From a virus, in the IMG/VR virus record IMGVR_UViG_3300021354_000039, positions 1-20,220 of that record: a stretch of DNA of 20,220 bases; one strand, 5' to 3'. The notes below the pieces were generated by a model, which saw only the letters and a program-made list of their open reading frames with translations, was not told the DNA's origin and made no database searches. Position 1 is the first letter of the stretch, and every line of letters begins with the position of its first letter. The position numbers and the translations under genes are program-made. Shown one piece after another: positions 159 to 17,888 of the stretch.

Positions 159-652
159 GTCTACGTCAAGACGCCCTTTTTCAAGGCTTAACTCGGTATT
201 TTACGGGTAAGCCATGTAAGCATGGGCATTTAGCTGAAAGATACGCAAAAGATGGTAATTGTGTAAATTGCACAAAAATTAAGCTTAACAAGTATCGTGA
301 GTTAAATCATAGCCTTGTTAATGAACGACGCCGCGCAAGCAAAGAAACTAACCGTAAAAGCACCGCACGATGGATAAAAGCCAATGCAGGTGTAGTTAAT
401 GCGTGGAATATGAAACGATACGCAGCCAAAAAACACCGCACTCCAGCATGGTTAACAAAAATAGACGCGGAAAGAATTGAAAATGTTTACAAACTTGCTA
501 CACTACAGTCTAAAATAACTGGGACAATTTGGCACGTTGACCATATAATTCCGTTACAAGGTAAATATGTATCGGGCTTACACGTTCCTGCTAACTTGAG
601 AGCTATTCCAGGTGCGGACAACATAAGAAAGCGTAACAGTTATGGGCTATGA
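155..652 (+). CDS. HNH endonuclease with N-terminal zinc-binding motif
   Basis: The 165-residue protein is probably a nicking or double-strand endonuclease of the phage HNH type. Residues 127-161 hold the core: HVDHIIPL (H127, D129, H130), a short loop, then VPANLRAIP (N147) and DNIRKRN (N156, N161), the usual phage HNH spacing. Near the N-terminus, C21, H23, H25, C36 and C39 could bind zinc, and residues 40-100 are strongly basic. The start is a TTG at 155 that overlaps the GroES stop (TTGA), with GGA at 144-146 as a weak ribosome site; no ATG precedes the zinc motif, and the frame upstream closes at 107-109. The gene overlaps the portal start by 11 bases. Freestanding HNH genes like this are usually mobile or assist packaging; the sequence does not say which. 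Confidence 0.88.
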   Translation: MSLRQDALFQGLTRYFTGKPCKHGHLAERYAKDGNCVNCTKIKLNKYRELNHSLVNERRRASKETNRKSTARWIKANAGVVNAWNMKRYAAKKHRTPAWLTKIDAERIENVYKLATLQSKITGTIWHVDHIIPLQGKYVSGLHVPANLRAIPGADNIRKRNSYGL

Positions 653-2909
653 CCAGTCGTCTATGAATATTGTTGGCAAAGTAGCCGATGTTGGTAGTAA
701 CCCTACATCTATTCCTGAAGATAAATCAGATATTTTATCGACCATGCGTCATCGTTTCCAGATGGCGATGTCTGCTTACTCCGAGTCCCGTGAGGACGAG
801 TTAGATGACTTACGCTTTATGGCTGGATCTCCTGACAACGGTTGGCAATGGCCCGCAGACGTTCTAGCTACGAGAGGCGCTGTTCAAGGACAGACTATCA
901 ACGCAAGACCTTGCCTTACTATCAATAAGCTGCCACAGCACGTCAAACAAGTAACAAACGAACAGCGTCAGAATCGACCTTCTGGAAAAGTGATCCCTGC
1001 GGACGATAAAGGCGACATTGAAGTAGCGGAAGTGTTTGAAGGTATGGTTCGCCATATCGAGTATATGTCTGACGCCGATGTGGTCTATGACACTGCTTGC
1101 GAAAACCAAGTAACGTATGGTGAAGGTTATTTCCGCATTTTGACCGAGTTTTGCTATGACAATAGCTTTGACCAAGACATTCGTCTAGGCCGTATTCGCA
1201 ACGCATTTAGCGTTTATATGGATCCGATGATCCAAGACCCTGCTGGTTGCGATGCTGAATGGTGTTTTATTAGCCAAGACATTGAAAAAGATGAATACGA
1301 GCGTCAGTTCCCTGATGCCGCGCCCATCACATCCATTATGTCCCAAGGTGTAGGTGATGATTCCCTAAGCCAATGGATTAACGAGAACACTATTCGTATT
1401 GTTGAGTATTTCTACTACACGCATACCCCAACTAAGCTCAATTTGTATCCAGGCAATCAATCGTTTTACAACGGCAGCCCTGAAGATAATCAAATGAAAG
1501 AGATGGGTTTAAAACCCATTAAAACTCGCACCGTTGATGTTAAAAAAGTCATGTGGATGAAATCCAATGGCTACGAAGTGTTACAAGAGCAAGAATGGGC
1601 AGGCAAATGGATACCTGTGATTCGTGTAATTGGTAATGAATTTGAAGTAGATGGTCGCATTTATGTGTCTGGCTTGGTTCGTAATGCCAAAGATGCACAA
1701 CGTATGTACAACTACTGGGTATCTCAAGAAGCCGAAATGCTTGCCTTGGCTCCAAAAGCACCGTTTATCGGTTATGGTGGTCAGTTTGAAGGCTATGAGA
1801 ACCAATGGAAAACTGCTAACACGACCAATTGGCCGTATTTGGAAGTTAATCCCGATGTAACTGATGGAATGGGCGCAACGCTGCCACTACCGCAGCGCGC
1901 CCCACCGCCTTTGGCACAAACTGGACTTATCCAAGCCAAAATGGGTGCAAGTGACGATATTAAGTCTACAACTGGTCAATATGACTCTAGTCTTGGACAA
2001 ACATCTAACGAGCGTTCAGGTAAAGCAATCCTTGCGCGTGAGCGTCAAGGCGACGTAGGTACTTTCCACTACGGCGATAACTTGACTAAAGCAATTCGCT
2101 TTGCTACCCGTCAGTTAATTGACCTGATTCCTAAGATTTACGACACCGAGCGTATTGCTCGTATCGTAGGTGTAGATGGTGAAGTGTCGATGGTCAAGTT
2201 AAACCCTGAACAGCCTGAGCCAGTTAAGAAAATTGTTGACCAACAAGGCATTGTGATTGAAAAAATCTACAATCCGAGCGTGGGTATATATGATGTCGTG
2301 GCTACTACAGGCCCAGGCTACATGACTAAGCGCCAAGAGGCTATGGAAGCGATGGCGCAGATTTTGCAAGGCAATCCTCAGTTGTGGGCAGTTGCTGGCG
2401 ATCTATTTGTTAAGAATATGGATTGGCCTGGCGCTCAAGAGATGGCTAAACGCTTAGAAAAGACAATTGATCCTAAGCTTATGTCTAGTACAGACGAAGA
2501 TCCAGCCTTGCAAGCTGCACAGCAGCAGATTCAAGCAATGGGTCAAGAAATGGAACAAATGCACACAATGCTTCAAAATGTTGGTCATTCGATTGAGATG
2601 CAGGACTTGGAGCGTAAAGACTTTGAAGCCCAAATTAAGCTATTTGATGCGGAAACTAAACGTTTATCGGCAGTTCAAGCTTCTATGTCACCTGAACAGA
2701 TCCAAGATATTGTCATGGGAACTGTGCATGGCATGATGGTGAATGGCGATCTTGTAACCGAAATGCAACGTGACACAAGCATGGATATGCAAGAAGAAGA
2801 TCAAAGAGAAGCGCAGATGGAACAACCGATGCAACCTCAAGGTCAACCAATGCCACCTCAAGGCGTTATGCCTGAACAAATGCCACCACAAGGGATGCCA
2901 CCACAATGA
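642..2909 (+). CDS. Portal protein, P22 type
   Basis: At 755 residues it is close to P22 gp1 (725). As the dodecameric vertex ring it would form the DNA entry and exit channel, bind the terminase during packaging and carry the gp4-type adaptor. Recognisable family stretches include ARPCLTINKLPQHVKQVTNE near residue 90, followed by QRQNRPSG, and TYGEGYFRI near residue 157. Residues about 625-680 are rich in Q, E and M and look like a coiled coil, where P22-like portals have their C-terminal barrel. The last 35 residues are a low-complexity run of M, Q and P. The ATG at 642 overlaps the HNH gene; there is no clear ribosome site, so coupling or a start at 663 (MNIVGKV) is possible. HNH genes lie on both sides. 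Confidence 0.93.
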   Translation: MGYDQSSMNIVGKVADVGSNPTSIPEDKSDILSTMRHRFQMAMSAYSESREDELDDLRFMAGSPDNGWQWPADVLATRGAVQGQTINARPCLTINKLPQHVKQVTNEQRQNRPSGKVIPADDKGDIEVAEVFEGMVRHIEYMSDADVVYDTACENQVTYGEGYFRILTEFCYDNSFDQDIRLGRIRNAFSVYMDPMIQDPAGCDAEWCFISQDIEKDEYERQFPDAAPITSIMSQGVGDDSLSQWINENTIRIVEYFYYTHTPTKLNLYPGNQSFYNGSPEDNQMKEMGLKPIKTRTVDVKKVMWMKSNGYEVLQEQEWAGKWIPVIRVIGNEFEVDGRIYVSGLVRNAKDAQRMYNYWVSQEAEMLALAPKAPFIGYGGQFEGYENQWKTANTTNWPYLEVNPDVTDGMGATLPLPQRAPPPLAQTGLIQAKMGASDDIKSTTGQYDSSLGQTSNERSGKAILARERQGDVGTFHYGDNLTKAIRFATRQLIDLIPKIYDTERIARIVGVDGEVSMVKLNPEQPEPVKKIVDQQGIVIEKIYNPSVGIYDVVATTGPGYMTKRQEAMEAMAQILQGNPQLWAVAGDLFVKNMDWPGAQEMAKRLEKTIDPKLMSSTDEDPALQAAQQQIQAMGQEMEQMHTMLQNVGHSIEMQDLERKDFEAQIKLFDAETKRLSAVQASMSPEQIQDIVMGTVHGMMVNGDLVTEMQRDTSMDMQEEDQREAQMEQPMQPQGQPMPPQGVMPEQMPPQGMPPQ

Positions 2910-3385
2910 TACAAAGTGAAGCTTTAACTTTATTTGCGTATCAAAACGGCAATTTATATTGGCGGGTAAAACCTTCTCGTGGGGTGCATATCGGCGATGA
3001 AGTAGGAACTATTTGTTCTACTGGACATCGTCGAGCTATGTATAAACGTAAACTTTATGCAGTACATAGATTAATTTGGCTTATGCACTATGGCGATATG
3101 CCTGCTGAAATAGATCATAAAGATACAAATAAGCTAAATAATAGGCTAGAAAATCTACGTATTGCAAAAGGTAAAAACCAACAAAATGTTGGCTTTAGAA
3201 AAGACAACACATCAAAAGCTAAAAATGTTTACTGGCATAAACCGACTATGCGTTGGAGTGTTATTGTCACTGCAAACAAGCAAAGGCATAATGTAGGCTA
3301 TTTTGACGATTTTGAACTCGCAGATTTAGTAGCTACTGAAGCTAGAGTTAAATACCATAAGGAGTTTGCTAATCATGGCCTATAA
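2906..3385 (+). CDS. HNH endonuclease with AP2-type DNA-binding domain
   Basis: This 159-residue protein has the classic phage HNH/AP2 layout. Residues 7-60 form the lead-in (LFAYQNGNLYWR, then VHRLIW with H54 and R55). The HNH core is EIDHKDTNKLNNRLENLR, with D70, H71, N79 and N83. From about residue 103 an AP2-like domain follows (VYWHKPTMRWSVIVT ... VGYFDDFELADLVA), which in relatives binds DNA. The ATG overlaps the portal stop as ATGA, so translation is probably coupled. Such genes commonly home into phage genomes. Its position directly after the portal, with another HNH gene directly before it, is notable. The two HNH proteins belong to different subfamilies and are not duplicates. Confidence 0.9.
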   Translation: MIQSEALTLFAYQNGNLYWRVKPSRGVHIGDEVGTICSTGHRRAMYKRKLYAVHRLIWLMHYGDMPAEIDHKDTNKLNNRLENLRIAKGKNQQNVGFRKDNTSKAKNVYWHKPTMRWSVIVTANKQRHNVGYFDDFELADLVATEARVKYHKEFANHGL

Positions 3386-3743
3386 AGCCGCTGATTTTGT
3401 AGGAATTTTATTCTTAGCCCGGGATGTAACCCATTCGGTTCATCTCAATACGCGTAGCTACGCAAAGCATAAAGCTTTGCAAAAATTTTACGAAAGTATT
3501 ATTGACCTTGCAGATTCATTTGCCGAGGCATATCAGGGACGACACGGTTTAATTGGCCCAGTTAGTTTAATGTCTGCCAAAAAGACTAGCAATGTCGTTG
3601 AGTTTTTAGAGTCACAACTTGCAGAGATTGAATCCGTAAGATACGATGTTGTCGATAAAAGTGATAGCTCAATGCAACAATTGATTGACAATATTATTGA
3701 GTTATATCTTTCAACCTTGTATAAATTAAGGTTCTTAGCATGA
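3375..3743 (+). CDS. Short Dps/ferritin-like helical protein (DUF5856-like)
   Basis: The 122-residue protein looks like four helices (roughly 7-25, 30-56, 71-92 and 98-119). I recognise it as the phage family probably called DUF5856 (name recalled, unchecked). H20, H32, D47 and E51 have spacings of 12, 15 and 4, identical to the Dps ferroxidase ligands of E. coli Dps (H51, H63, D78, E82); the run DLADSFAEAYQG resembles the Dps helix-B motif DxxxE followed by LGG. A Dps-type role in iron oxidation or DNA protection is an inference. The protein is shorter than Dps (about 150-180 residues) and lacks a basic tail. The ATG at 3375 has AAGGAG at 3359-3364; a TTG at 3366 in frame is less likely. The stop overlaps the fibre start as ATGA. 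Confidence 0.78.
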   Translation: MAYKAADFVGILFLARDVTHSVHLNTRSYAKHKALQKFYESIIDLADSFAEAYQGRHGLIGPVSLMSAKKTSNVVEFLESQLAEIESVRYDVVDKSDSSMQQLIDNIIELYLSTLYKLRFLA

Positions 3744-5887
3744 CCGTTACTATAACGCACAGCACACCTTCAGATAGTAGTTTTAGCGCTACTGGTGCAA
3801 CCGCTTGGGATGCAAACCATACCTTAAGTGGTCTTGGAACAATGGCAGAGCAAAATGCCAATGCAGTAGCAGTTACAGGCGGTAGTGTTGATGGCACGAC
3901 CATTGGTGCTACCACAGCTTCTAATGCTGCGTTTACTTATGCTTCTACTAATAGCTCAACTAGCACAACTCCTGCCTTAAGTTATAACGCTTCTAATTCT
4001 TCATTTGTAAATGGGGCTACTGTTTCAGGTAGTTACCTGCAAAACATTATGCAGAACAAGAGTGGTACAGCAGGTGCTTCTACCAACTTTGCGGTTAGTA
4101 ACGACTTAGGCACAGATTCTACCTATTATGGTGAGTTTGGTATGAACTCCTCTGTATTTTCAAGTGGAACGCCTGCCGACTTTTTTAGTCTTAATAACGG
4201 AGTTTACTATTCAGGACACGATGGCGATATAAGTATTGGGTCAGGTAATGGCTATAAGACTTATTTAGCATGGGGAACTACTGGTCAATCTGCCCATGTG
4301 ATTAATGCTAGTGGTGCTATTGGTTTAAATACCAACATCACAGGAACTACTAACTTTGGTACTGCTGGTCAAGTATTAACTTCTGCTGGTTCTGCCGCAA
4401 CTCCTACATGGGGTACACCTTCTGCTGGTGCTGGTGGCTCTAACACTCAAGTTCAATATAACTCTAGTGGTGTATTAGCTGGCTCTGCCAACATGACCTT
4501 TAGTGGTACAGCATTAACATTAGCTAATGATGCAAGTATTTCAGGATTAACTGTTGGTAAAGGTGGTGGTGCTGTAGCAACAAATTCTGCGTTTGGTTTA
4601 GGTGCAATGGCTGCAACTGCTACTGGAACAAATAACACAGGGTTAGGAAATATTGCTTTAGCGGCATTAACTTCAGGTGCTAATAATACTGGCGTTGGTT
4701 CTTTTGCATTAACAGCAAATACAACAGGAATACAAAATACAGCAGTAGGTGCGGCAGCATTAAGACTTAATATATCAGGGGGTTCTAATACTGCGGTTGG
4801 TTATGTTTCACTTTATAGTAATACTGGCAGTAATAACTCTGCCATTGGAAATTCGTCTTTAAATGCAAATACTTCTGGTGCTGGTAATTGTGCTTTAGGA
4901 GCTAGTTCACTTTTATCAAACACAACTGGAAGCAATAGTGTTGCTATTGGTTTAAATGCCGCTAACAGAGCAACAGGCTCTAGCAATATATCTATTGGAG
5001 TTGAAGCATTATATTGGGGAATAAACTCCAGTAATAATGTGGCTGTAGGACATCAAGCTGTAGCCAATTCTTCTAATATATCAGGGCTTACTGGAGTAGG
5101 GTATAACGCCCTTTATAACAATACTACTAACATAGCAACACTAGGTTCTATTACTGGTGGTAGTGGTTACACCGATGGAACTTACAATGGCGTAACAATG
5201 AGTACCGTTAGTGGGGCAACATTTAATCCTAGCCCTACAGCTAATGTCACGGTAAGTGGTGGTGCAGTTACAGCAGTTACTTTGGTTAATCGTGGAGTAG
5301 CAGCAACAGTTACAACAGCAACAGTCCTTACGGTTACAGCCGCACAACTTGGTGGTACGGGGTCAGGGTTTTCTATTCCAGTAGCTACTTTTGCAAGCGG
5401 TACAGGCAACACAGCCGTAGGTTATCAAAGTTTATATACAAACAGTACAGGCGGTTCAAATACGGCTCATGGATACCAAGCTGGTTATGCAGTAACAACA
5501 GGCTCTAACAATGTATTTTTGGGACAAGGTTCAGGTTATACATCAACATTAACAACTACAGGATTTCAACTTGTTTATATAGGGTCTGGCTCAAGAGGCT
5601 CTGCTGCAACAAATCAAAACGAAATAGCCATTGGTTATAACGCAGTCGGATTGGGAACAAATACAAGTGTTATTGGTAATAGCTCAACTACACTAACTAA
5701 ATCATTTGGTGTATTCCGTCAAACTACTTATACAGTAGCTCAAGCAAACGCATTAACAGGTTTAGTTGCTGGAGATAGAGCATTTGTAACAGATGCTTTA
5801 ACTCCTGTATTTGGTTCTGCTGTAGTTGGTGGTGGTGCAATTAATGTGCCCATTTATTACAACGGCGCTGCTTGGTATGTTGGTTAA
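3740..5887 (+). CDS. Large tail fibre/adhesin with YadA-head-like repeats
   Basis: This 715-residue, Gly/Ser/Thr/Asn-rich protein has the composition of a trimeric phage fibre. About residues 290-465 and 550-645 consist of repeats of the type NTAVGxxAL..NTTGxN, which resemble the left-handed roll of YadA-type adhesin heads. A different beta-rich segment (about 466-550, starting ITGGSGYTDGTYNG and ending GSGFSIPVATF) splits the repeat array. The last 60 residues end AFVTDALTPVFGSAVVGGGA and a terminal aromatic strand; the same tip ends the protein at 14692-15681. The N-terminus (MTVTITHSTPSDSSFSATG) would attach it to the virion. Its job is presumably host adsorption. The start overlaps the upstream stop (ATGA). 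Placement between portal and scaffold is unusual for a fibre. Confidence 0.85.
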   Translation: MTVTITHSTPSDSSFSATGATAWDANHTLSGLGTMAEQNANAVAVTGGSVDGTTIGATTASNAAFTYASTNSSTSTTPALSYNASNSSFVNGATVSGSYLQNIMQNKSGTAGASTNFAVSNDLGTDSTYYGEFGMNSSVFSSGTPADFFSLNNGVYYSGHDGDISIGSGNGYKTYLAWGTTGQSAHVINASGAIGLNTNITGTTNFGTAGQVLTSAGSAATPTWGTPSAGAGGSNTQVQYNSSGVLAGSANMTFSGTALTLANDASISGLTVGKGGGAVATNSAFGLGAMAATATGTNNTGLGNIALAALTSGANNTGVGSFALTANTTGIQNTAVGAAALRLNISGGSNTAVGYVSLYSNTGSNNSAIGNSSLNANTSGAGNCALGASSLLSNTTGSNSVAIGLNAANRATGSSNISIGVEALYWGINSSNNVAVGHQAVANSSNISGLTGVGYNALYNNTTNIATLGSITGGSGYTDGTYNGVTMSTVSGATFNPSPTANVTVSGGAVTAVTLVNRGVAATVTTATVLTVTAAQLGGTGSGFSIPVATFASGTGNTAVGYQSLYTNSTGGSNTAHGYQAGYAVTTGSNNVFLGQGSGYTSTLTTTGFQLVYIGSGSRGSAATNQNEIAIGYNAVGLGTNTSVIGNSSTTLTKSFGVFRQTTYTVAQANALTGLVAGDRAFVTDALTPVFGSAVVGGGAINVPIYYNGAAWYVG

Positions 5888-5901
5888 TTTTAAGGATAGA
5901 T

Positions 5902-6225
5902 ATGAACACATACACATGGACAGTAACGGCATTATCAACCATGCCAACCCCAACACCTGATTATGTCGTGTACGCACAATACACAGTAACAGGCACAAAC
6001 GGAACAATCACAGTAGAAACTCAAGGCACAAGCCAGTTTTCAGTTAATCCTGACCAAACAGACTATGTACCCTATGCTGATTTGACAGAAGCTATCGTAT
6101 TAGGCTGGATTCAAAGCGAACAAAACTTGGTAGTCAATACACAGGCTAACTTGGATGGGCAGATTGATTCTATTTTAAATCCGCCTGTAAGCCCACAAAA
6201 CACACCACTTCCTTGGTCTAAATAA
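5902..6225 (+). CDS. Small tail-associated protein, DUF7936-like, copy A
   Basis: The 107-residue protein starts MNTYTWTVTALS at 5902 behind AAGGAT (5892-5897); an in-frame ATG at 5872 lies inside the fibre gene and has no ribosome site. It shows an N-terminal beta-sandwich-like half (VVYAQYTVTGTNGT), then a helix motif (YADLTEAIVLGWIQSE) and a C-terminus that ends PLPW. The protein at 15696-16046 shares the plan: NTYxW, QYxVxxTxG, LTExxVLxW, NPP and LPW. I recall this as a common phage family next to fibre genes (DUF7936; unchecked). A role as a fibre partner or chaperone is inferred from the fact that both copies directly follow a fibre gene. Confidence 0.75.
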   Translation: MNTYTWTVTALSTMPTPTPDYVVYAQYTVTGTNGTITVETQGTSQFSVNPDQTDYVPYADLTEAIVLGWIQSEQNLVVNTQANLDGQIDSILNPPVSPQNTPLPWSK

Positions 6226-6240
6226 AAAAGATAGCTAAAT

Positions 6241-6357
6241 ATGGGAAACTTTTTTAGTGGATATTTCTTTTCTGGTGGCTTTTTTGGTAGTATTATCGAA
6301 GCTAGCATACAAGTTTTAATTAAAATTCGGTCTTTTACCGAACGAAGGAGAATTTAA
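6241..6357 (+). CDS. 38-residue Phe/Gly-rich small protein
   Basis: The frame reads MGNFFSGYFFSGGFFGSII followed by EASIQVLIKIRSF and a basic end, and stops at TAA 6355-6357, one base before the next ATG. Repeated FFSG/GGFFG units recall short phage proteins with the same FFGGGFFG pattern. The first 27 residues are hydrophobic, so it could insert in a membrane or in the virion; I cannot assign a role. No good ribosome site is visible (only aaaaaagata at 6226-6234), so translation would depend on coupling with the gene that ends at 6225. The 3' part overlaps the hairpin and ribosome site of the next gene. Confidence 0.5.
   Translation: MGNFFSGYFFSGGFFGSIIEASIQVLIKIRSFTERRRI
6326..6350 (+). 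promoter_or_regulatory. Hairpin directly upstream of a strong ribosome-binding site
   Basis: TTCGGT (6326-6331) pairs perfectly with ACCGAA (6337-6342) around a 5-base loop (CTTTT), and AAGGAG follows at 6345-6350, seven bases before the ATG at 6358. The stem has only six pairs and no U-run follows, so a terminator is unlikely. It may keep the ribosome site exposed or mark an mRNA processing point. The role is inferred; the pairing is seen. Confidence 0.5.
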
Positions 6358-6663
6358 ATGTCAGTAAATTTAAAAGCAATTACCACCCGTTTAGGGTATC
6401 AGCAGATCACTTCTTTAAGTTCGGCGACCAATTTAACTGTCCCTGTTAAAGATGTAAATGGCTTAAACTGCAAGCCTTCAATTGCTTTAATTACCCCCGA
6501 AACGCAAGCGGTGCGGTGGCGTGATGATGGCATTGCTCCTAGCGCTACTGTCGGTATGCCTCTTGCAACCGGGGTAACACTTCAGTATGACGGCGATTTA
6601 ACCAAAATTCAATTTTTTGAACAAGCTGGTAGTGCCAAGTTAAATATCAGTTACTACGCTTAA
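6358..6663 (+). CDS. Conserved phage protein of unknown function, 101 aa
   Basis: A beta-rich 101-residue protein without Cys-based motifs or membrane segments. It has the features I recall from a widespread small phage family: an N-terminal GYQQITSLSSATNLTVP, a middle AVRWRDDGIAPSATVGMPL and an end SAKLNISYYA. Its usual position is among head and tail genes, so a minor structural or decoration role is plausible, but this is inference. The start has the best ribosome site in the block (AAGGAG, seven-base spacer), which suggests high expression. It is followed after nine bases by the coiled-coil gene. Confidence 0.75.
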   Translation: MSVNLKAITTRLGYQQITSLSSATNLTVPVKDVNGLNCKPSIALITPETQAVRWRDDGIAPSATVGMPLATGVTLQYDGDLTKIQFFEQAGSAKLNISYYA

Positions 6664-6672
6664 AGGTGATAT

Positions 6673-7191
6673 ATGAACATTTCAAATGATGCTGGCGGTA
6701 TTGATTCAAGTCGATTTATAGACTACTTTACCAAGCAAATGCCTTTAGACCTAGCTCAAATGGCTGCTTTGCGCGATGAATTAGAACGTAGACAAGGTGC
6801 TTTAACTGCGGTAGATGAAGCTAATAGAGCTAAAACTGACGCAGAAGCCATTTTAGCTAAAACAAAAATTGAAGCCGCCGATTTGGTCACACGCGCAAGC
6901 GCTCAAAAACAAGCCGTTGATGCTCAATTAGCTGATATTGCTAGCCAAAAAACGGCACTTGCAGACCAACAAAGCACCTTTGTTGATAATGTAAAAGCTC
7001 AAAATTTGGATTTGCAATCTCGTAAAAATTCAGCCGATGCGTTAGATGCCGTATTAGCTAAACGTGAGGCAGATGTAAAAGCCCGTGAAGCAACCGCTTC
7101 GGCAACCGAAGCAAAACTAGCTAGTTATCAGCTTGAATTAGATGGTCGTATTAAAGCTTTTCAGGCTAAAGTAGCGTCTATTAGCGCTTAA
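6673..7191 (+). CDS. Coiled-coil protein of unknown function
   Basis: The 172-residue protein is almost wholly helical, with long Ala/Lys/Glu/Gln/Asp stretches from about residue 30 to 170 (for example ELERRQGALTAVDEANRAK and VLAKREADVKAREATAS) in heptad-like spacing. The N-terminal 30 residues (DSSRFIDYFTKQMPLDLAQM) form a short separate segment. There is no signal peptide or catalytic motif. It might be a structural spacer or an assembly factor; the function is unknown. AAAGGTGA at 6662-6669 is a fair ribosome site for the ATG at 6673. The stop is one base from the next ATG. Confidence 0.75.
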   Translation: MNISNDAGGIDSSRFIDYFTKQMPLDLAQMAALRDELERRQGALTAVDEANRAKTDAEAILAKTKIEAADLVTRASAQKQAVDAQLADIASQKTALADQQSTFVDNVKAQNLDLQSRKNSADALDAVLAKREADVKAREATASATEAKLASYQLELDGRIKAFQAKVASISA

Positions 7192-7192
7192 T

Positions 7193-7471
7193 ATGACAGT
7201 CAACTTATCTATCTTAGCTGGCGCTGGAGGTCAATTTTTTGACGATACAGGTATTCCTTTGTCTGGTGGATTGATATACACCAACGCCTCAAGAAATAAG
7301 CAAAGAAAAAGCAATGGGTTATTATCCGAATCCGATTTTTCGGTTTTACTCGATGTTAATTTAACCAATAAAGCCGCTTGGGAAACTTATAGGGCTAATA
7401 TAAGAGCAATTGCAATTAATCCAACTATCGACCCTACTTGGCCAATAAAGCCACCAGAGTTGTGGAGTTAA
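7193..7471 (+). CDS. Chimeric small protein: tailspike N-terminal anchor joined to a tail-chaperone-like end
   Basis: Residues 1-31 (MTVNLSILAGAGGQFFDDTG, IPLSGGLIYTN) match the N-terminus of the tailspike at 16043 almost position by position. After a short basic linker (RNKQRKSNG), residues about 42-92 change to LLSESDFSVLLDVNLTNKAAW, an ETYRANIRAI stretch and a WPIKPPE end. That is the pattern of the phage tail-assembly-chaperone-like family (LLxxSDWxxLxDxxL..aWxxYRxxLR..WPxxP). The 60-odd anchor residues that normally follow YTY, and any receptor-binding domain, are absent. This looks like a deletion or recombination remnant. Whether it is still functional is unknown. No clear ribosome site is seen; the start is one base after the upstream stop, so coupling is likely. 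Confidence 0.75.
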   Translation: MTVNLSILAGAGGQFFDDTGIPLSGGLIYTNASRNKQRKSNGLLSESDFSVLLDVNLTNKAAWETYRANIRAIAINPTIDPTWPIKPPELWS

Positions 7472-7538
7472 TTTAATATTTAATATAGAATTGTTGTAAA
7501 TGTACTAGCCATTAGCTAGGGTTCTTAAAGGAACGAAA
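7472..7538 (+). promoter_or_regulatory. Longest gap of the window: AT-rich leader of the scaffold-coat genes
   Basis: The 67 bases hold an AT-only start with a possible -10 (TATAGA 7484-7489, 18 bases after a poor -35 TTGTGG at 7460-7465), then a small hairpin CTAGC/GCTAG (7505-7509 with 7515-7519), then GTTC/GAAC (7521-7524 with 7531-7534) that wraps the ribosome site AAAGGAA (7527-7533). It could be a late promoter or an mRNA processing point that lifts scaffold and coat expression. The promoter match is weak and unproven. Confidence 0.35.
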
Positions 7539-8327
7539 ATGTCAGACGAACAAGAAGTAGTCTTAGCGGACTCAAATGCCGCGCCAGAACAGGTGGCAAC
7601 GGTTGCCCCTGAAGCTGAAGTAGTTGCGCCGGAAGCAGAAAATACCGCAGAAGCGGCTAAAACATTCTCTCAAGAGGATGTGGATGCGCTGATCGGGAAA
7701 CGACTTGCTAGAGAACAACGTAAGTGGGAAAGAGAACAGACCGCTAAAGCTGCTGAAATGCAGACTAGACGCGCTCCAGCCGAAATCCCGTCGATTGAGC
7801 AGTTTAATTCACCTGATGAATATGCTGAAGTATTGGCAGAACGTAAGGCAGAAGAACTCCTTGCTAGGCGTGAACAAGCAAAAGCACAGTCTGCAATCGT
7901 TGAGTCTTATCACGACCTTGAAGAAGATGCACGGAATAAGTACGATGACTTTGAACAAGTTGCGTATAACCCCAAGCTCCCTATCACGGATGCGATGGCT
8001 CAAACAATCCAATCTTCGGATGTTGGCCCCGATATGGCTTATTACCTGGGGTCTAATCCAAAAGAAGCGGAGCGTATTTCTCGTTTATCGCCACTTTCGC
8101 AAGCCAAAGAATTAGGGAAGATTGAAGCTAAATTAAGCGATAATCCTCCTGTAAAAAAGACTTCGAACGCACCAGCACCAATTGCACCTGTTACGGCACG
8201 ATCCTCTGGGTCGCCTAGCTTTGATACAACTGATCCTCGCTCAATTAAGAGCATGAGTACTTCAGAATGGATTGAAGCAGATCGCCAAAGACAGGTCAAA
8301 AAGTGGGAAGCGCAGAGAAACCGCTAA
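7539..8327 (+). CDS. Scaffolding protein
   Basis: The 262-residue acidic-to-basic protein lies directly before the coat gene, where P22 gp8 lies. Residues 1-45 are acidic and Ala/Pro-rich. Residues 45-130 are helical and highly charged (VDALIGKRLAREQRKWERE; YAEVLAERKAEELLARREQA). A middle part has DVGPDMAYYLGSNPKEAERI near 170. A disordered Pro/Ser linker (about 205-240) and a short basic C-terminal helix (WIEADRQRQVKKWEAQRNR) follow; P22-type scaffolds bind coat through a basic C-terminal helix-loop-helix. It would guide procapsid assembly and then leave. AAAGGAA at 7527-7533 gives a good ribosome site. It is close to P22 gp8 in size (about 300 residues). Confidence 0.88.
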   Translation: MSDEQEVVLADSNAAPEQVATVAPEAEVVAPEAENTAEAAKTFSQEDVDALIGKRLAREQRKWEREQTAKAAEMQTRRAPAEIPSIEQFNSPDEYAEVLAERKAEELLARREQAKAQSAIVESYHDLEEDARNKYDDFEQVAYNPKLPITDAMAQTIQSSDVGPDMAYYLGSNPKEAERISRLSPLSQAKELGKIEAKLSDNPPVKKTSNAPAPIAPVTARSSGSPSFDTTDPRSIKSMSTSEWIEADRQRQVKKWEAQRNR

Positions 8328-8348: not shown

Positions 8349-9563
8349 GTGTCTAATAGCTTATTAACGATCGACATGATCACACGCAAGGCACTCGAAA
8401 TTCTCGAGAATAACCTTGTACTCACACGCAACGTCAACCGTGCTTATGATGACTCCTTTGCTGTTGAAGGTGCCAAAATTGGTTCTACTTTGCGTATCCG
8501 TTTACCAGACCGCGCTTTGGTAACTGACGGCGCCGCCTTGCAAGTTCAAGACGACAACGAACAGTACACCACATTGGCTGTTTCTAGCCAAAAGCATATT
8601 GGCGTAAACTTCACTTCTGCTGAATTAACAATGCAGTTAGATGATTTCGCTGAACGTGTATTAAAACCTCGTATTAGCCAACTGGCGTCATCTATTGACA
8701 ATGATGTAGCTAACGCTTATCAGTCAATTTTTAACTCTGTTGGCACACCTGGTACAACTCCTTCAACTTCTTTGGTCTTGCTACAAGCTAACCAAAAGTT
8801 AAATGAGTATGCTTCCCCAATGAACAATCGTTACGCTACTGTTAACCCAGCAGCCAACGCAGGTTTAGTTGAAGGCATGAAAGGCTTTTTTAATCCAACT
8901 GGAACTATCAGCAGCCAATTTAAGTCTGGCATGATGGGTACTGGCGTATTGGGCTACGATGAAGTAAATATGAGTCAATCTATTGTGAGTTTTACAACAG
9001 GTTCCCGCGTAGTTGCTGATTCTGCGGCAATTAAAACCACCATTTCTGTTCAAGGCACTGCAAAGGTAACTATTAAAGCAGTTACTAGCGCTAAAACTTT
9101 GGCTGTTGGTGATGTATTTACTATTGCTGCCGTTTACTCTGTAAACCCACAAACCCGTCAATCTACAGGTTCATTGCAACAGTTTACCGTTACTGCATTG
9201 AATACTTCTGTAGCTACCGAGTTTGTTGATGTGGCTATCAGTCCTGCGCTTTACACACCTGCAAATGCTTTGGCAACTGTAGATGCGTTTCCTTTAGCTG
9301 ATGCTGTTGTAACTTATCTAGGCGCTGCTTCAACGGTATACCCACAAAACTTAGCATACCAAAAAGATGCTATCACTTTTGCTACCGCTGATTTGCTGTT
9401 ACCACAAGGTGTAGATATGGCTTCACGTCAAGTTCACAACGGAATTTCATTGCGTGTTGTACGTCAGTATGATATCAATAATGACCGTTTGCCTTGCCGT
9501 ATTGACGTTCTATACGGATATAGCGTAATTCGTCCACAAATGGCTTGCCGGATTTGGGGTTAA
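8349..9563 (+). CDS. Major capsid protein, P22 coat (gp5) type
   Basis: The 404-residue protein (P22 gp5 has 430) forms the icosahedral shell. The N-terminus (LLTIDMITRKALEILENNLV), the DDSFAVEGAKIGSTLRIRLP stretch near residue 35 and the NFTSAELTMQLDDFAERVLK stretch near 87 match P22-like coat proteins. The region of about 220-330 is beta-rich, with TIKAVTSAKTLAVGDVFTI, and sits where P22 coat has its inserted telokin-like domain. The end PCRIDVLYGYSVIRPQMACR is the family C-terminus. The start is GTG at 8349 behind AAAGGAA (8337-8343), a five-base spacer. The preceding gene is the scaffold. A phage-encoded GroES nearby would fit, since P22 coat variants depend on the chaperonin. Confidence 0.93.
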   Translation: MSNSLLTIDMITRKALEILENNLVLTRNVNRAYDDSFAVEGAKIGSTLRIRLPDRALVTDGAALQVQDDNEQYTTLAVSSQKHIGVNFTSAELTMQLDDFAERVLKPRISQLASSIDNDVANAYQSIFNSVGTPGTTPSTSLVLLQANQKLNEYASPMNNRYATVNPAANAGLVEGMKGFFNPTGTISSQFKSGMMGTGVLGYDEVNMSQSIVSFTTGSRVVADSAAIKTTISVQGTAKVTIKAVTSAKTLAVGDVFTIAAVYSVNPQTRQSTGSLQQFTVTALNTSVATEFVDVAISPALYTPANALATVDAFPLADAVVTYLGAASTVYPQNLAYQKDAITFATADLLLPQGVDMASRQVHNGISLRVVRQYDINNDRLPCRIDVLYGYSVIRPQMACRIWG

Positions 9564-9900: not shown

Positions 9901-10176
9901 ATGGCACTACCTAAAGTTGGTGATGGCGAACAAGTTGGTGATGGCAATACGGGTGAAGTACTGAATGTAGGTCGTTCAGGACAATCACTTCAAGTTGGCG
10001 GAACCGCAGCTACAACGCTTGGTTTTTATGGCGCAACACCTGTAGTACAGCGCGCTACTGCAACAACCCATACCACCACTAATGTGGTTACTTCAGCATC
10101 TTTTGGCACACTTCAAGTGGCTCAAATGCAAGAAGTAATGAATACATTGGCTGGTTTAGGCCTCTGGGCGTCGTAA
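9901..10176 (+). CDS. Small conserved phage structural-type protein
   Basis: A 91-residue protein of unknown function with a Gly/Val-rich front that repeats VGDGxxG (VGDGEQVGDGNTGEVLNVG) and a middle TLGFYGATPVVQRATA, seen by recall in many phage genomes next to coat or fibre genes. The end is a helix (QMQEVMNTLAGLGLW). The motif GFYGxTPVxQ suggests a virion surface or tail-fibre-tip family, but I cannot assign it. AAGGAAAT at 9888-9895 is the ribosome site. The stop TAA shares its last base with the methyltransferase ATG. Confidence 0.68.
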   Translation: MALPKVGDGEQVGDGNTGEVLNVGRSGQSLQVGGTAATTLGFYGATPVVQRATATTHTTTNVVTSASFGTLQVAQMQEVMNTLAGLGLWAS

Positions 10177-10685
10177 TGGATCGGGGTTCGTTGTTGCACG
10201 TTGGGTGTGGCAACGAATCCCTACCTGTTTGGATGGATGGTTTTACCGAAACACGATTAGACATTAATAAAGCTAGTTCACCTGATATCGTAGCGTCTAT
10301 GCTAGATATGGGCGATATTGGCGAATACGATGTAATCTATTGCAGCCATGCTTTAGAACATTTATCCCCTTTTGAAGTCCCTGTAGCAATAAGCGAATTT
10401 TTACGTCTATTAAAGCCTGGTGGATATGCAATGGTTTTTGTCCCCGATTTAGAAGATGTTAAAGCAACCGAAGATGTTGTATTGGAATCGCCAAGTGGCC
10501 CAATCACCGGTTTGGATATGATCTATGGGTATGCTAAAGCATTACGTGAAGGCAATCATTATATGGCTCATAAGTGTGGCTTTGTTAGTGATACGCTTAA
10601 AAAAGCGTTTATTAATGGTGGTTTTTCTACTGTTAAAACGCAGCGAATTGTACCTTTTAATCTTATGGCAATAGCGATCAAATGA
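10176..10685 (+). CDS. Class I SAM-dependent methyltransferase
   Basis: The 169-residue protein has the order of a small Methyltransf_11/UbiE-like fold: motif I LLHVGCGN (6-13), the acidic end of strand 2 RLDIN (27-31), the D/E-rich DMGDIGEYDVIYCSHALEHL (44-63) with the HALEHL signature, and LLKPGGYAMVFVPDL (78-92). The substrate is unknown; HALEHL proteins in phages often pair with glycosyltransferases and may modify a sugar or a protein. No DNA-methylase motif IV (DPPY/NPPY) is present. The ATG overlaps the preceding stop by one base, and its stop overlaps the glycosyltransferase start (ATGA), so the two enzymes are translated together. Confidence 0.85.
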   Translation: MDRGSLLHVGCGNESLPVWMDGFTETRLDINKASSPDIVASMLDMGDIGEYDVIYCSHALEHLSPFEVPVAISEFLRLLKPGGYAMVFVPDLEDVKATEDVVLESPSGPITGLDMIYGYAKALREGNHYMAHKCGFVSDTLKKAFINGGFSTVKTQRIVPFNLMAIAIK

Positions 10686-11359
10686 AAGTAGTCCTGTGCG
10701 TACCCACGCTGACAAGACCCTATCAGCAAACATTAAATAGTATTGCAGGCTCAATTGCCGCTTTAGATAGCGCAAATATTGAACACTTTATGGTATCCGA
10801 AGTTGGATGCCCCTATATTAGCGCTGCTCGGTCAACCATGCTTCGTAAGGCGCTAGACGCAAAAGCAGATGTAATTGTCTTTATTGACCACGACGTTAGT
10901 TGGAAACCTCAAGATTTAGTAACCCTTATCCAAACTGAGGGCGATGTAGTAGCAGGCTTATATCGGTTTAAAAAAAATGAAGAACTTTATATGGGTGTAA
11001 TCTGCGATGGTGAAAATGCTTTGCCAATCACTAGACCTGATGGCTCTATTGCCGCTACCCGTGTCCCGGCTGGATTTTTAAAGATAACTAAAGAAGCGGT
11101 TAATCGTTTTATGACCGCTTACCCTGACCTAATGTACGGCCCCAAATACGCGCCGTCCATTGATTTATTCCATCATGGCGCACACAAAGGCGCTTGGTGG
11201 GGTGAAGATTATGCCTTTAGCCGTAATTGGATTGACTGCGGGGGTGAAATATGGGTTGCGCCAAATCTTGATTTAAGCCATCATTCAAGTGAAAAAGAAT
11301 ATAAAGGTAACTTTCATCAATTTTTAAGGCAACAACCAGGCGGAGATTTACATATATGA
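10682..11359 (+). CDS. Glycosyltransferase, GT-A fold (GT2-like)
   Basis: The 225-residue protein begins with a nucleotide-binding strand (KVVLCVPTLTRP, 2-13), has an AARSTML motif (48-54) where GT2 enzymes carry AxARN, and then ADVIVFIDHDVSW (62-74), whose DHD (69-71) stands for the metal-binding DxD. VPAGFLKITKEAV and WWGEDYAFSRNW, which resembles the GEDxxFC acceptor motif, follow. It should transfer a sugar from a nucleotide-sugar, in the host cytoplasm. The acceptor is unknown: virion protein, host glycan or DNA base are all possible. Two-gene coupling with the methyltransferase (ATGA) suggests one pathway, for example a methylated sugar cap. The next gene overlaps by four bases. Confidence 0.82.
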   Translation: MKVVLCVPTLTRPYQQTLNSIAGSIAALDSANIEHFMVSEVGCPYISAARSTMLRKALDAKADVIVFIDHDVSWKPQDLVTLIQTEGDVVAGLYRFKKNEELYMGVICDGENALPITRPDGSIAATRVPAGFLKITKEAVNRFMTAYPDLMYGPKYAPSIDLFHHGAHKGAWWGEDYAFSRNWIDCGGEIWVAPNLDLSHHSSEKEYKGNFHQFLRQQPGGDLHI

Positions 11360-13058: not shown

Positions 13059-14699
13059 ATGAGAACCCCTATACTTGGCCAATCTTATGTAGCTAGGTCG
13101 GTTAATGCTGCGGACAACCGCATGATTAACTTATTTCCTGAAGCTACACCTGAAGGCGGTAAAGATTCTGGCTTTCTTAACCGCGCCCCAGGGCTGCGTA
13201 AGTTAGCCACAATTGGCACTGGCCCTATTCGTGGTCTTTGGACACACCAAACAGGTGGTACAGACGCTTATGTAATATCTGGTAATGAGTTTTATAAAAT
13301 AGACACTAGCTATAACGCTACTTTAATAGGCACCGTTAACGGCGTTGGCCCTGTATCTATCGCCGATAGTGGCACTCAAATATTTATTGCTTGTAATCCT
13401 TCAGCGTTTGTTTATACCGAAGCTAGCAATACTTTTGAGCAAATTTTAGATCCTGATTTTGCTGGCGCTAAAACCGTATCTTACATTGACGGTTATTTTG
13501 CTTTCAATCAACCTGATAGCCAAATTATTTGGGTTACTGAAGTATTAAATGGTACTTCTATTAATCCATTAGCATTTGCGGCGGCCGAAAGTTCTCCTGA
13601 TTTAGTTCAAGCGATTGTTACTAATAATCGTGAAGTTTGGGTGTTTGGTACAGGTACAACTGAAGTTTGGTACGATGCAGGTACTACTCCTTTCCCTTTA
13701 GCCCCTATTCAAGGTGCGTACAATGAAATTGGTTGCTTGGCTGCGTTTTCTATTGCTAAATTGGATAACAGCATATTTTGGCTTGGCGCTGATCCTCGTG
13801 GCTACGGTATTGTTTATCGTAATCAAGGTTACACAGGCAAACGTGTATCTACCCATGCCATAGAGTACGCAATTCAAAGCTATGGCGACGTTTCAGATGC
13901 TATTGCATACACATACCAGCAAGAAGGTCATGCTTTTTATGTATTGACTTTTCCTACGGCGGGTAAAACTTGGGTATATGACGTATCTACTAATGCTTGG
14001 CATGAACGTGCCGGTTTTAACGAAGGTGAGTTAACTCGCCATCGTAGTCAATGCCAAATGAGTTTTAATAGCCAAACTATTGTTGGCGATTATGAAAACG
14101 GCAATTTGTACGCTATGGATTTAGACGTATACGCTGATAATGGTCAAACTCAAAAATGGCTTCGTTCTTGGCGTCCTATTCCATCTGGGCAAAACAATCT
14201 TAATCGCACCGCACAGCATAGTTTGCAATTAGATTGCGAAACAGGTGTTGGTTTAAATGCTTATCCTGAATATTTTGCCCAAGATTTAATTACAGAAGAT
14301 GGTCGTATTATTGTGGCTGAGTTTACTCAAGGCTATTTAGTAACTAATTCAAATAATCAACTAACAACAGAAATTAATGATGGTGGTGAGCCATTAGTAA
14401 CTGTTAATTGGCCTGAACCTTACCCAGATGGTTACGCTATAACTACGACCCCATACGAAGCTACGGCAGGGTATGATCCACAAGTAATGCTTCGTTGGTC
14501 AGATGACGGCGGTCATACATGGTCAAATGAACATTGGGTTTCAATGGGCAAAATAGGTGAACATGGTCGCCGTGCCTATTGGCGCCGTCTTGGAATGACT
14601 ACTAAATTACGCGACCGCGTATATGAAGTATCTGGTACTGACCCTGTTAAAATAGCTATTATTGGGGCAGAACTTCATGTAAGTGGCACAAATGCTTAA
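13059..14699 (+). CDS. Tail hub / packaged-DNA stabilisation protein, P22 gp10 type
   Basis: At 546 residues it is longer than P22 gp10 (472). The start MRTPILGQSYVARSVNAADN and the following RMINLFPE are the family signature. The middle has LNRAPGLRKLATIGTGPIRG, GNEFYKID and NREVWVFGTGTTEVWYDAGT; the latter is typical of the gp10 beta-propeller. The last 90 residues (VMLRWSDDGGHTWSNEHWVS, GRRAYWRRLG) are a beta domain present in long environmental homologues. In P22, gp10 follows gp4 below the portal, closes the head and supports the tail spikes. No strong ribosome site is seen (only a weak purine run before the ATG at 13059). Its last codons overlap the next gene. Confidence 0.88.
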   Translation: MRTPILGQSYVARSVNAADNRMINLFPEATPEGGKDSGFLNRAPGLRKLATIGTGPIRGLWTHQTGGTDAYVISGNEFYKIDTSYNATLIGTVNGVGPVSIADSGTQIFIACNPSAFVYTEASNTFEQILDPDFAGAKTVSYIDGYFAFNQPDSQIIWVTEVLNGTSINPLAFAAAESSPDLVQAIVTNNREVWVFGTGTTEVWYDAGTTPFPLAPIQGAYNEIGCLAAFSIAKLDNSIFWLGADPRGYGIVYRNQGYTGKRVSTHAIEYAIQSYGDVSDAIAYTYQQEGHAFYVLTFPTAGKTWVYDVSTNAWHERAGFNEGELTRHRSQCQMSFNSQTIVGDYENGNLYAMDLDVYADNGQTQKWLRSWRPIPSGQNNLNRTAQHSLQLDCETGVGLNAYPEYFAQDLITEDGRIIVAEFTQGYLVTNSNNQLTTEINDGGEPLVTVNWPEPYPDGYAITTTPYEATAGYDPQVMLRWSDDGGHTWSNEHWVSMGKIGEHGRRAYWRRLGMTTKLRDRVYEVSGTDPVKIAIIGAELHVSGTNA

Positions 14700-15681
14700 T
14701 ATAACCTTACTACCTTCCGCTAAAGTACCGCTGATTTACGACGGCGATACTGTAATGACGACAGAATGGTATCGTTTTTTCTGGAATGTCTATGGTTTTA
14801 CTGGTGATTCTACTGGCGCTATCCCTGTTAACAAAGGCGGTACTGGGATAACAAGTATTGGTGAGCATCAACTTATTATTGGCACTGCTAATAATACTTT
14901 TGAACCTGCCATTTTGACAGGTAGTGGTATTGCTATTACTTACACCGCAGGGCAAGTTAATCTTGCTATCGGCGCTTCTGGTGTTACGCCTGGCACTTAT
15001 GGTTCATCTTCAAGTGTTGGCCAATTTACAGTTAATCAATACGGCGCCATAACCGCAGCTACAAATGTATCTATTGGTATTAATGCGTCGCAAATTATTA
15101 GCGGGACTATTAATCCTGCTCGTATTTCTGGCTCTTATACGGGTATTACAGGTGTTGGTATATTAACCGCAGGTACATGGAACGCTAGTGTTATAGAAGC
15201 TATTTATGGTGGTACAGGTCAATCTAGCTATACAACTGGTGATCTTTTATATGCTTCAGCGCCAGCTACTTTATCTAAATTAGCTGATGTAGCTACGGGA
15301 AATGCTCTTATTTCAGGTGGCGTAGGTGTTGCGCCTAGCTATGGAAAAATTGGCCTTACAACTCATGTATCTGGCACTTTACCTGTAACTAATGGCGGTA
15401 CAAACCTTACTGCATTTACGGCTAATGGCATTATGTACGCAAGCTCTACTTCAGCACTTGCTACTAGTTCGGCTTTAACTTTTGATGGCACAAATTTTGC
15501 TACAACAGGAACAATTAAAACAGGCGGGTACACCGTAGCTACATTACCTGCTGCTGGAACAGCGGGCCGTAGAGCGTATGTAACTAATGCTTTAGCTCCT
15601 ACTTATGGCTCGGCTGTAGTAGGCGGCGGCGCTGTAGTAATACCTGTATTTGATAATGGAACTATTTGGATAGTAGCTTAA
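14692..15681 (+). CDS. Fibre-like protein with a shared C-terminal tip, locus B
   Basis: The 329-residue protein (from ATG 14692; GTG 14683 is an alternative) starts MLNITLLPSAKVPLIYDGDT with a TTEWYRFFWNVYGF anchor, a familiar phage fibre start. The body has Gly/Thr beta repeats (GGTGITSIGEHQLIIGTANN, GGTGQSSYTTGDLLYAS, NGGTNLTAFTANGIMYASS). The last 50 residues (ATLPAAGTAGRRAYVTNALA, then YGSAVVGGGAVVIPV, IWIVA) match the end of the fibre at 3740-5887, position for position. It fills the gene position of the P22 gp26 needle but shows no long coiled coil. The ATG overlaps the gp10 stop (ATGCTTAA). The presumed role is adsorption or tail tip; inferred. Confidence 0.78.
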   Translation: MLNITLLPSAKVPLIYDGDTVMTTEWYRFFWNVYGFTGDSTGAIPVNKGGTGITSIGEHQLIIGTANNTFEPAILTGSGIAITYTAGQVNLAIGASGVTPGTYGSSSSVGQFTVNQYGAITAATNVSIGINASQIISGTINPARISGSYTGITGVGILTAGTWNASVIEAIYGGTGQSSYTTGDLLYASAPATLSKLADVATGNALISGGVGVAPSYGKIGLTTHVSGTLPVTNGGTNLTAFTANGIMYASSTSALATSSALTFDGTNFATTGTIKTGGYTVATLPAAGTAGRRAYVTNALAPTYGSAVVGGGAVVIPVFDNGTIWIVA

Positions 15682-15695
15682 TTAAAAGTTAAAAA

Positions 15696-16046
15696 ATGAC
15701 AAATACATATAAATGGTCAATTAAAAACATTTTTTGTTACCCTAATGTAGAGGGTAAAGAAAATGTTATATTTAATGTTCAATATAGCGTTTCCGCAACG
15801 GACGGCGTAAACAGTTTTTCCGCAGAAAAATCGCAAGAACTTGAATTAAATTCAAGCAAAAACTTTACGCCTTTTGACCAACTTACAGAAGAACAAGTCC
15901 TTGATTGGGTAAAAGCCGCCGTAGGCGACAATAATATTAATCAAATTCAATCTAGTCTTGACGAAATCGTGACTAAACTATCTAATCCACCTATAATCAA
16001 CCCAACATTACCTTGGGTCAAGAACCCTAGCCAGGAGCCTTTATGA
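15696..16046 (+). CDS. Small tail-associated protein, DUF7936-like, copy B
   Basis: The 116-residue protein resembles the product of 5902-6225: NTYKW at the start, VQYSVSATDG in the middle, FDQLTEEQVLDWVKAAVG, then LSNPP and LPW near the end. It follows a fibre gene just as copy A does. AAAAGTTAAAAA (15684-15695) is only a poor ribosome site. The stop overlaps the tailspike start (ATGA), so it is coupled to that gene, which fits a fibre/tailspike partner role. The function is unknown; identity to copy A is low (perhaps a quarter to a third by eye). Confidence 0.75.
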   Translation: MTNTYKWSIKNIFCYPNVEGKENVIFNVQYSVSATDGVNSFSAEKSQELELNSSKNFTPFDQLTEEQVLDWVKAAVGDNNINQIQSSLDEIVTKLSNPPIINPTLPWVKNPSQEPL

Positions 16047-17728
16047 CTGTTAATTTATCCCTTTTTGCTGGTGCGGGGTCACAATTCTTTACCGATGACG
16101 GTGTGCCTTTAAGCGGCGGTTTGCTTTATACCTACGTTGCTGGATCTACAACACCACTAACTACTTACACTTCTAATGTTGGTGTTGTTACTAATAGCAA
16201 CCCTATTGTTTTGGACTCGGCGGGCCGTGTTCCTTATGAAATATGGCTATTAGAAGGCACCGTAGCTAAGTTTATTCTTCAAGACGCGCAAGCAGTGCAA
16301 ATCGGTTCTTGGGACAATATTGCTGGCGCAAACGACCTTACCACTACAAATGCTGCTATTACTGCTGTTTACGCTAATTTAGCCAATACAACTGACGCTG
16401 CCAAAGGCGATGCTTTAATTGGTTTTAGACAATCTAATAACTCAGGTCTTATTGCTAATGCTGTGGCTAAAACAGTCCATCAAAAATTTCAAGAATTGGT
16501 ATCTGTAAAAGATTTTGGTGCAATAGGTGATGGCACAACCAATGATTACAACGCTATTCAAAACGCTATTTATTACGCTCAGGATAATAACGGTTGCGTA
16601 TATTTCCCTTCTGGTAACTATAAAGTTAATACAGGCTTAGTATTTACTGAAATTTGCGGTATTGATTGCGCTAGCGGTGCAACAATTACAGGTAAAGACA
16701 ATACGATCGACGTTGTTACGCTCAATCCTTCAGGCGTTAACTACACTAATCAAGTTCTTAATATCCCCGCTATTTATACGGGCAAAATAGGCTTACATCT
16801 TAAAGGCGTTACTTTAGCCAATTTAACAATTTCATCTATTACTAATTGCGTAGATGGTTTAGTATTATCAATAGATGATAACAATAAGGTTTGTGCTGAC
16901 AACATTGTTAACTTTACAGTTATTAGCCAATGTTCTGCTGCGGGGCTTAAATTTAATTATTTAGCCACTACAACTAGCGGTACATTGATGCAAGGTAATG
17001 AAATTTACGGTAATTTTATTACCGGCAGTAAATATTGCGTTCATTTTTATGACGTTAATAATGGTGCATTGCAAAATTTACCTTGGGACGATACTTTAAT
17101 TGATATTTTTGCTTTAGATAACGCTGTTCCCGATTCTATTGTTCTCTACGGCGAGCCATCATTCCCACCTGCTAGAACCACTTGGAACCATAAAGGATTT
17201 TTTGGCGGTGCTACAGATGCGTTAATTAAAGGCAGTTGCAACGCAAATATTTTTAATATCGCTTTGGCAACGGCGGCGCCGTATGACCAAATGCAATTAG
17301 CTGGCACTGCCAATTTAATATTTAATAATTCTGGCGGTTGGGAAGGTACAGTAGGTGTTACTACAGCAATTCCTTTGACTACCGCTGTAAATACACAATC
17401 TACTTTTAATAGCGGAAATCCAGTATTTTCTAATCGTTTTTACGCTAGTATGACCGTTCCTACTGGGGGTTGGGTAGCAGGCGATAACGCTATATTTTAC
17501 TTTTACAGCCCTTTAATAACGCAGTACGGCCCTCCAGTTATGGTTGAACCAAGATGGAACGTACCTATGATTTGTATGTACGCTGTTGAAAATAATACGC
17601 CTGGCGTTGGTGGCCCAAGTAGTGAAGCTCCATACCCGTTCCAAGGTGCGGTAAAGTTCCAAGCCATTGGCGTTGTACCTGAAGGCACATATAACTTTTT
17701 TATTACTGTTCACGGCGTTCCACATTAA
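16043..17728 (+). CDS. Tailspike with pectate-lyase-type beta-helix
   Basis: The 561-residue protein has an N-terminal anchor (1-95) with AGSQFFTDDGVPLSGGLLYT, AGSTTPLTTYT, NPIVLDSAGRVPYEIWL and GSWDNIAG, a domain common to tailspikes of P22-like and other podoviruses. A helical neck (about 96-150) leads to VSVKDFGAIGDGTTND (153-168), the standard start of a Pectate_lyase_3 beta-helix, with the usual FPSGNYKV at about 188. The beta-helix (about 190-400) is followed by a beta-rich C-terminal module ending EGTYNFFITVHGVPH. It probably binds and cleaves host surface polysaccharide; catalytic residues cannot be placed by eye. It starts within the preceding stop (ATGA). The same anchor start recurs in the 92-residue gene at 7193. 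Confidence 0.9.
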   Translation: MTVNLSLFAGAGSQFFTDDGVPLSGGLLYTYVAGSTTPLTTYTSNVGVVTNSNPIVLDSAGRVPYEIWLLEGTVAKFILQDAQAVQIGSWDNIAGANDLTTTNAAITAVYANLANTTDAAKGDALIGFRQSNNSGLIANAVAKTVHQKFQELVSVKDFGAIGDGTTNDYNAIQNAIYYAQDNNGCVYFPSGNYKVNTGLVFTEICGIDCASGATITGKDNTIDVVTLNPSGVNYTNQVLNIPAIYTGKIGLHLKGVTLANLTISSITNCVDGLVLSIDDNNKVCADNIVNFTVISQCSAAGLKFNYLATTTSGTLMQGNEIYGNFITGSKYCVHFYDVNNGALQNLPWDDTLIDIFALDNAVPDSIVLYGEPSFPPARTTWNHKGFFGGATDALIKGSCNANIFNIALATAAPYDQMQLAGTANLIFNNSGGWEGTVGVTTAIPLTTAVNTQSTFNSGNPVFSNRFYASMTVPTGGWVAGDNAIFYFYSPLITQYGPPVMVEPRWNVPMICMYAVENNTPGVGGPSSEAPYPFQGAVKFQAIGVVPEGTYNFFITVHGVPH

Positions 17729-17837: not shown

Positions 17838-17888
17838 ATGCAATTAGCCGCCAATACCGAACAAAAAGGCGCCGTCGCATGGCTATAG
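17838..17888 (+). CDS. 16-residue upstream frame overlapping the acetyltransferase start
   Basis: MQLAANTEQKGAVAWL starts one base after the upstream TAA and stops at TAG 17886-17888, ten bases into the acetyltransferase gene. It has no ribosome site of its own apart from coupling. It could be a leader that couples translation into the acetyltransferase, or the scar of a lost gene. Low certainty. Confidence 0.25.
   Translation: MQLAANTEQKGAVAWL

Follow-up and report, generated by a model that had tools for sequence, protein, structure and literature searches.

Chaperones of the Tfa type (Mu Tfa and Pam3 gp25; Pfam Phage_tail_APC / Caudo_TAP) combine a non-conserved N-terminal domain, which grips the tail fibre, with a conserved C-terminal helical domain, which trimerises and, in Pam3 gp25, also assembles the fibre (PMC9608196). 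The head-binding domains of Pam1 (PDB 7eeq), Pan3 (9vyg), and P22 (1lkt) form a second reference group. A third consists of stand-alone anchor proteins of 99–170 aa, which were common among the loci compared here (L006, L075, L081, L204, L230, and L319, the last being WJZ48168 of phage DSL-LC05), often followed by a spike lacking an anchor; this arrangement suggests split tailspikes whose anchor is an adaptor protein of its own. An ORF of 92 aa (7193–7471, + strand, ATG to TAA) in a 20,220-base IMG/VR record, the whole of which is hereafter called the window, bears a likeness to all three groups. It possesses the conserved C-terminal helical domain of the Tfa chaperones, but 30 anchor residues stand where the variable fibre-binding domain would be at the N-terminus, and the gene immediately upstream does not encode a fibre. 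These 30 residues are homologous to the start of the head-binding domain as found in the resident tailspike, but approximately two thirds of that domain and the entire β-helix are missing. The anchor-only proteins start in the same way, and three of their genes (L230, L075, and L081) also occupy the position of the chimera, directly after a coil gene; they differ in keeping the complete anchor domain and in lacking a chaperone domain. We consider it likely that the ORF is a recombination scar in a site that gains and loses receptor-binding cassettes, and it is probably young and of little function.

The window belongs to a P22-like phage, as indicated by matches of its portal, scaffold, head, closure, tailspike, and DNA-ejection genes; its head protein is 76% identical to that of environmental phage MW202483 and 71% identical to that of DSL-LC05. 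The features discussed below are as follows.

642–2909, + strand: P22-like portal protein, bounding the variable site on the left (PHROG 156, 5e-123)
6358–6663, + strand: conserved 101-aa gene within the variable site; the coil gene usually comes next (comparison with relatives)
6673–7191, + strand: coiled-coil-like gene; 1 nt separates its end from the start of the chimera (ORF list; a scaffold or anchor gene comes next in relatives)
7193–7282, + strand: anchor remnant, codons 1–30 of a tailspike/anchor head-binding domain (identity to the window's own spike, anchor HMM)
7283–7291, + strand: junction, residues 31–33, N-A-S (alignment)
7292–7471, + strand: Tfa / Phage_tail_APC-like C-terminal domain, residues 34–92 plus stop (PHROG 4697 and 4912, sub-threshold PF16778, 2kz6, model)
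7472–7538, + strand: intergenic leader of the scaffold gene, 67 nt (hairpin CTAGC-CATTA-GCTAG at 7505–7519, and AAAGGA)
7539–8327, + strand: scaffolding protein, bounding the variable site on the right (PHROG 8865, 8e-29; 88% identity in L004)
8349–9563: major head protein
13059–14699: head closure protein
16043–17728, + strand: resident intact tailspike, anchor (residues 1–110) plus pectate-lyase-like β-helix (PF12708, 2.8e-12; 7eeq, 4.6e-16)
18362–19159: DNA-ejection protein

Several other genes of the window were recorded. In each of two similar modules (3740–6225 and 14683–16046), a gene for a fibre-like protein precedes one for a DUF7936 protein; the fibre-like proteins have a common C-terminal segment (..GSAVVGGGA..), and the second module adjoins the tailspike gene. 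A methyltransferase-like gene (PHROG 6636) and a gene of PHROG 1574, which gives the impression of a glycosyltransferase, lie between the head and connector genes (10176–11359). The portal gene is preceded by an endonuclease VII-like gene (PHROG 1035, 155–652) and followed directly on its 3' side by one with the look of a homing endonuclease (2906–3385, an impression only). A GNAT acetyltransferase gene (17879–18328; PF00583, 1.3e-9) comes after the tailspike.

The anchor of the resident tailspike is a real head-binding domain. Its alignment matched the tailspike head-binding domain of 7eeq (4.6e-16), and a model of the first 115 residues of the spike (mean pLDDT 90) superimposed on 7eeq with TM scores of 0.71/0.79 and a deviation of 2.1 Å, with a weaker match to the P22 head-binding domain. 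The first-pass annotation had described residues 1–31 of the chimera as a repeat of this tailspike N-terminus. The homology was borne out, with 23 identities among residues 1–30 (E = 1e-13) and a match to an anchor HMM built from 79 relatives (E = 9e-10, profile positions 1–32 of 112), but the piece comprises 30 residues rather than 31 and is a homologue, not a recent copy. Only 60 of its 90 nt are identical to the resident spike gene, and more than 10 anchors from other contigs are closer to it at the DNA level; a recent duplication of the 5' end of the resident gene was rejected on these grounds.

The chaperone-like character assigned earlier to residues 42–92 also held, with the boundary displaced to approximately residue 34. 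Residues ~34–89 matched PHROG 4697 (2e-6) and PHROG 4912 (3e-6), which are tail-assembly-chaperone / tail-fibre-assembly families, and a family-specific alignment placed the domain at residues ~34 to 92 with 39–55% identity to clear members. The match to PF16778 (Phage_tail_APC; 6e-4, 20 bits) was below the curated cut-off of 26.6. A profile match was obtained to PDB 2kz6 (E = 5e-5), to which HHpred also linked a putative tail fibre assembly protein of phage JG068 (PMC3765740). Both halves of the chimera thus have homologues and share one frame, with approximately three residues (~31–33, N-A-S) assigned to neither parent; the peptide across the junction is GGLIYTNASRNKQRKSNGLL. A true linker at residues 32–41 was rejected, since the chaperone homology covers this stretch from ~34; the residues of the supposed linker are mostly the first helix of the chaperone domain. 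A sequencing frameshift was rejected as well, since no change of frame separates the halves and the window has just one anchor besides this one.

The statement that the β-helix and most of the anchor are missing proved correct. The complete head-binding β domain (~95 residues) is absent, and there is no C-terminal β-helix receptor-binding domain within the 92 aa, whereas 16043–17728 has one (PF12708). The N-terminal fibre-binding domain of Tfa / Phage_tail_APC is likewise absent. In the chaperone domain, most of the conserved residues are kept (both Arg, Tyr, three Pro, and the terminal Trp). Three of the 14 strongly conserved positions are changed, namely the near-invariant K to Q, A to S, and W to F, all of them in the junction-proximal first helix, and the C-terminal half is intact.

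In the AlphaFold model of the chimera, residues 1–13 and 25–27 had pLDDT values below 50, and the chaperone part formed two helices (28–46 and 60–75). A fold search with this model gave no match, as expected from its low confidence. Two of the five predicted anchor strands are present (3–6 and 27–32), and homology to the solved head-binding domains spans anchor positions 18–95, of which the chimera keeps only 18–30. These results bear on the suggestion that the product is a decoy occupying tailspike sites, or a retargeted adaptor, in which the anchor residues would attach to either the tail hub or the anchor trimer, with three such peptides displayed there on trimerising helices. The first 30 residues hold many of the best-conserved anchor positions, and fusion of a trimerising domain to a part of a trimeric anchor is conceivable. 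With 30 of ~95 anchor residues, two strands of five, very low AlphaFold confidence in an anchor piece predicted to be unfolded, and no second example, however, the chimera can hardly compete for the tailspike site, and we regard this reading as very improbable. A related reading, in which a newborn chaperone-adaptor would act on the anchor domain through the Tfa trimerisation helices and three anchor peptides, is very improbable, and the same holds for particular roles such as nucleating anchor trimers or protecting the tail hub. If it were true, one recombination event would have redirected a chaperone that acts at the fibre tip towards the spike's virion-proximal end.

The expression signals of the chimera are poor. 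Its start has the weakest Shine-Dalgarno pairing of the 22 window genes tested (+0.6 kcal/mol), and its ATG lies 1 nt after the stop codon of the coil gene, which leaves translational coupling as the only plausible route. The anchor genes at the same place in L230, L075, L081, and L080 have a ribosome-binding-like sequence. A scan for sigma-70 promoters around the chimera gene found nothing above chance.

For comparison, approximately 390 loci were fetched, mostly from IMG/VR, and chaperone sequences were collected from two IMG/VR scans (the best 80 of 183 and the best 80 of 208 relatives) and HMM searches. The chaperone domain was found in at least 161 ORFs encoding at least 96 distinct proteins. 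The C-terminal domain is common to the family, and the N-terminal parts of at least 25 aa fall into at least 19 unrelated clusters; the shared C-terminal domain and varied N-termini indicate that the family has the architecture of Pam3 gp25 and Mu Tfa. The N-terminal part of the chimera, which is anchor sequence, is the sole member of its cluster. Of the 96 distinct proteins, 83 had an identifiable upstream neighbour; in 49 cases the neighbour overlapped or lay no more than 5 nt away, and many of these close neighbours end like tail fibres. Unlike most of the family, the chimera is preceded directly by the coil gene and not by a fibre gene.

Some family members are short, with first-Met lengths down to 54–88 aa, and the domain naturally takes many different N-termini. 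The chimera may accordingly be viewed as a retained minimal chaperone, whose Tfa C-terminal helices still trimerise, as the corresponding domain of Pam3 gp25 does (PMC9608196), and help to fold a fibre or spike of the phage; the open frame and the conserved residues fit this view. Its difficulties are the missing fibre-binding N-terminal domain present in Pam3 and Mu (PMC9608196), the lack of a fibre gene directly upstream, the start without a Shine-Dalgarno sequence, and the replacement of K, A, and W in the first helix. We therefore judge a retained chaperone unlikely, and there is a similarly small chance that the 30 anchor residues do no more than provide it with a start, or that they serve as its new N-terminal tentacle.

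The search for homologues with the same junction, which the first-pass annotation had recommended, returned none within the coverage described below. Among the at least 161 ORFs with the chaperone domain, only that of the window matched the anchor HMM, and phage records, viral contigs, plasmids, and bacterial and archaeal genomes yielded no further anchor-chaperone fusion within the coverage of the pattern scans. A single-protein scan of bacterial genomes, of a kind that reaches close relatives only, detected no relative of the chimera. A first fusion pattern gave zero matches in IMG/VR, a result of little weight as the pattern covers only 12 of 104 anchor-bearing loci. A second pattern, covering 41 of 85 anchors and 89 of 94 chaperone domains, gave one match over all IMG/VR, a chance hit with in-frame stops. 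Within the limited pattern sensitivity for the collections searched, the chimera is a singleton fusion without a conserved family. The idea of a dedicated chaperone that copies the anchor loses its footing here, as there is no fusion family, the resident spike was not the source of the anchor piece, and no Shine-Dalgarno sequence precedes the start.

In this freshwater P22-like group, the stretch that separates the portal gene from the scaffold gene is a receptor-cassette site of hypervariable content. Across the window (642–8327) and loci L001–L238, its content ranges from short genes up to a 974-aa anchored spike with a fibre-chaperone pair. Some relatives have only short conserved genes there, or the 101-aa and coil genes; others have full anchored spikes (L009, L021, L023, L035, L036, and L060), anchor-only genes (L006, L054, L230, and DSL-LC05), or fibre-chaperone genes (L006, L023, L036, L051, and L053). 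Whichever gene precedes it, the scaffold gene of nearly all inspected relatives has a short hairpin (CTGGTG..CACCAG or CTAGCC..GCTAG) on its 5' side, with a Shine-Dalgarno-like stretch after the hairpin.

Each flank of the chimera occurs separately in relatives. In L230, L075, L081, and L080, the coil stop is followed 8–14 nt on by an anchor ATG, and in L051 and L053 a chaperone gene lies directly 5' of the scaffold gene. The 67-nt leader between the chimera and the scaffold gene best matched those of L036/L315, L035, and L023 (scores 79–80), and L036, L035, and L023 have a chaperone and/or an anchored spike just 5' of the scaffold gene. L107, L018, and L009 came next, and nearly all top matches have anchored spikes just upstream, whereas relatives with the coil gene directly before the scaffold gene scored 50 or less. 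The left end of the chimera therefore resembles a coil-anchor flank and the right end a cassette-scaffold flank. Alternatively, a metagenome assembly artefact may have fused reads from two strains, in which case the gene would not be real; the record is a fragment of an uncultivated virus, and IMG/VR contains no second copy. The reading frame continues across the join, however, the homology on either side comes within a few residues of it, and both flanks are of the same phage type, syntenic, and found in these arrangements elsewhere; such an artefact is quite unlikely.

A scar of receptor exchange, one of the origins proposed in the first-pass annotation, is the reading best supported by the singleton fusion, the cassette site, and the separate flanks. 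The site would have started with the order coil, anchor/tailspike gene, fibre chaperone, and scaffold. An illegitimate in-frame event, most simply a deletion within the cassette or an equivalent illegitimate recombination, would have joined codon 30 of the anchor-bearing gene to the C-terminal domain of the Tfa-type chaperone, with loss of the remaining anchor, of any receptor domain or fibre that lay in between, and of the N-terminal domain with which the chaperone binds the fibre. Left over would be a short protein made up of the two helices of the Tfa C-terminal domain and an unstructured tail of 30 residues. Stop-start coupling with the coil gene would allow weak translation at best, and the protein would have no fibre left to serve. 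The two halves, their site, the lack of other fusions, and the separate flanks in relatives are observations, and the single-deletion route, the low expression, and the lack of function are inferences.

Some observations count against a scar. The order anchor, chaperone, scaffold required of the precursor was not found at the site among the relatives examined: the chaperone is ahead of the anchored gene in L006, L023, and L036, and the anchor is ahead of the chaperone only in L245, at another site and with other genes between. The codon-position composition of the chimera is not unusual, and a maintained gene would show the same intact frame and conserved chaperone residues. The frame is indeed intact, as had been pointed out, but maintenance does not follow from this, because a young in-frame deletion would also be intact and no orthologue was found with which to gauge selection.

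The chimera appears to catch one step in the turnover of host-recognition genes in the abundant, little-studied freshwater P22-like phages, in which a cassette site fills, shuffles, and empties. Mosaic evolution is expected to produce small in-frame fusions along the way, and open frames with partial domain matches in phage genomes should therefore not be taken for function.
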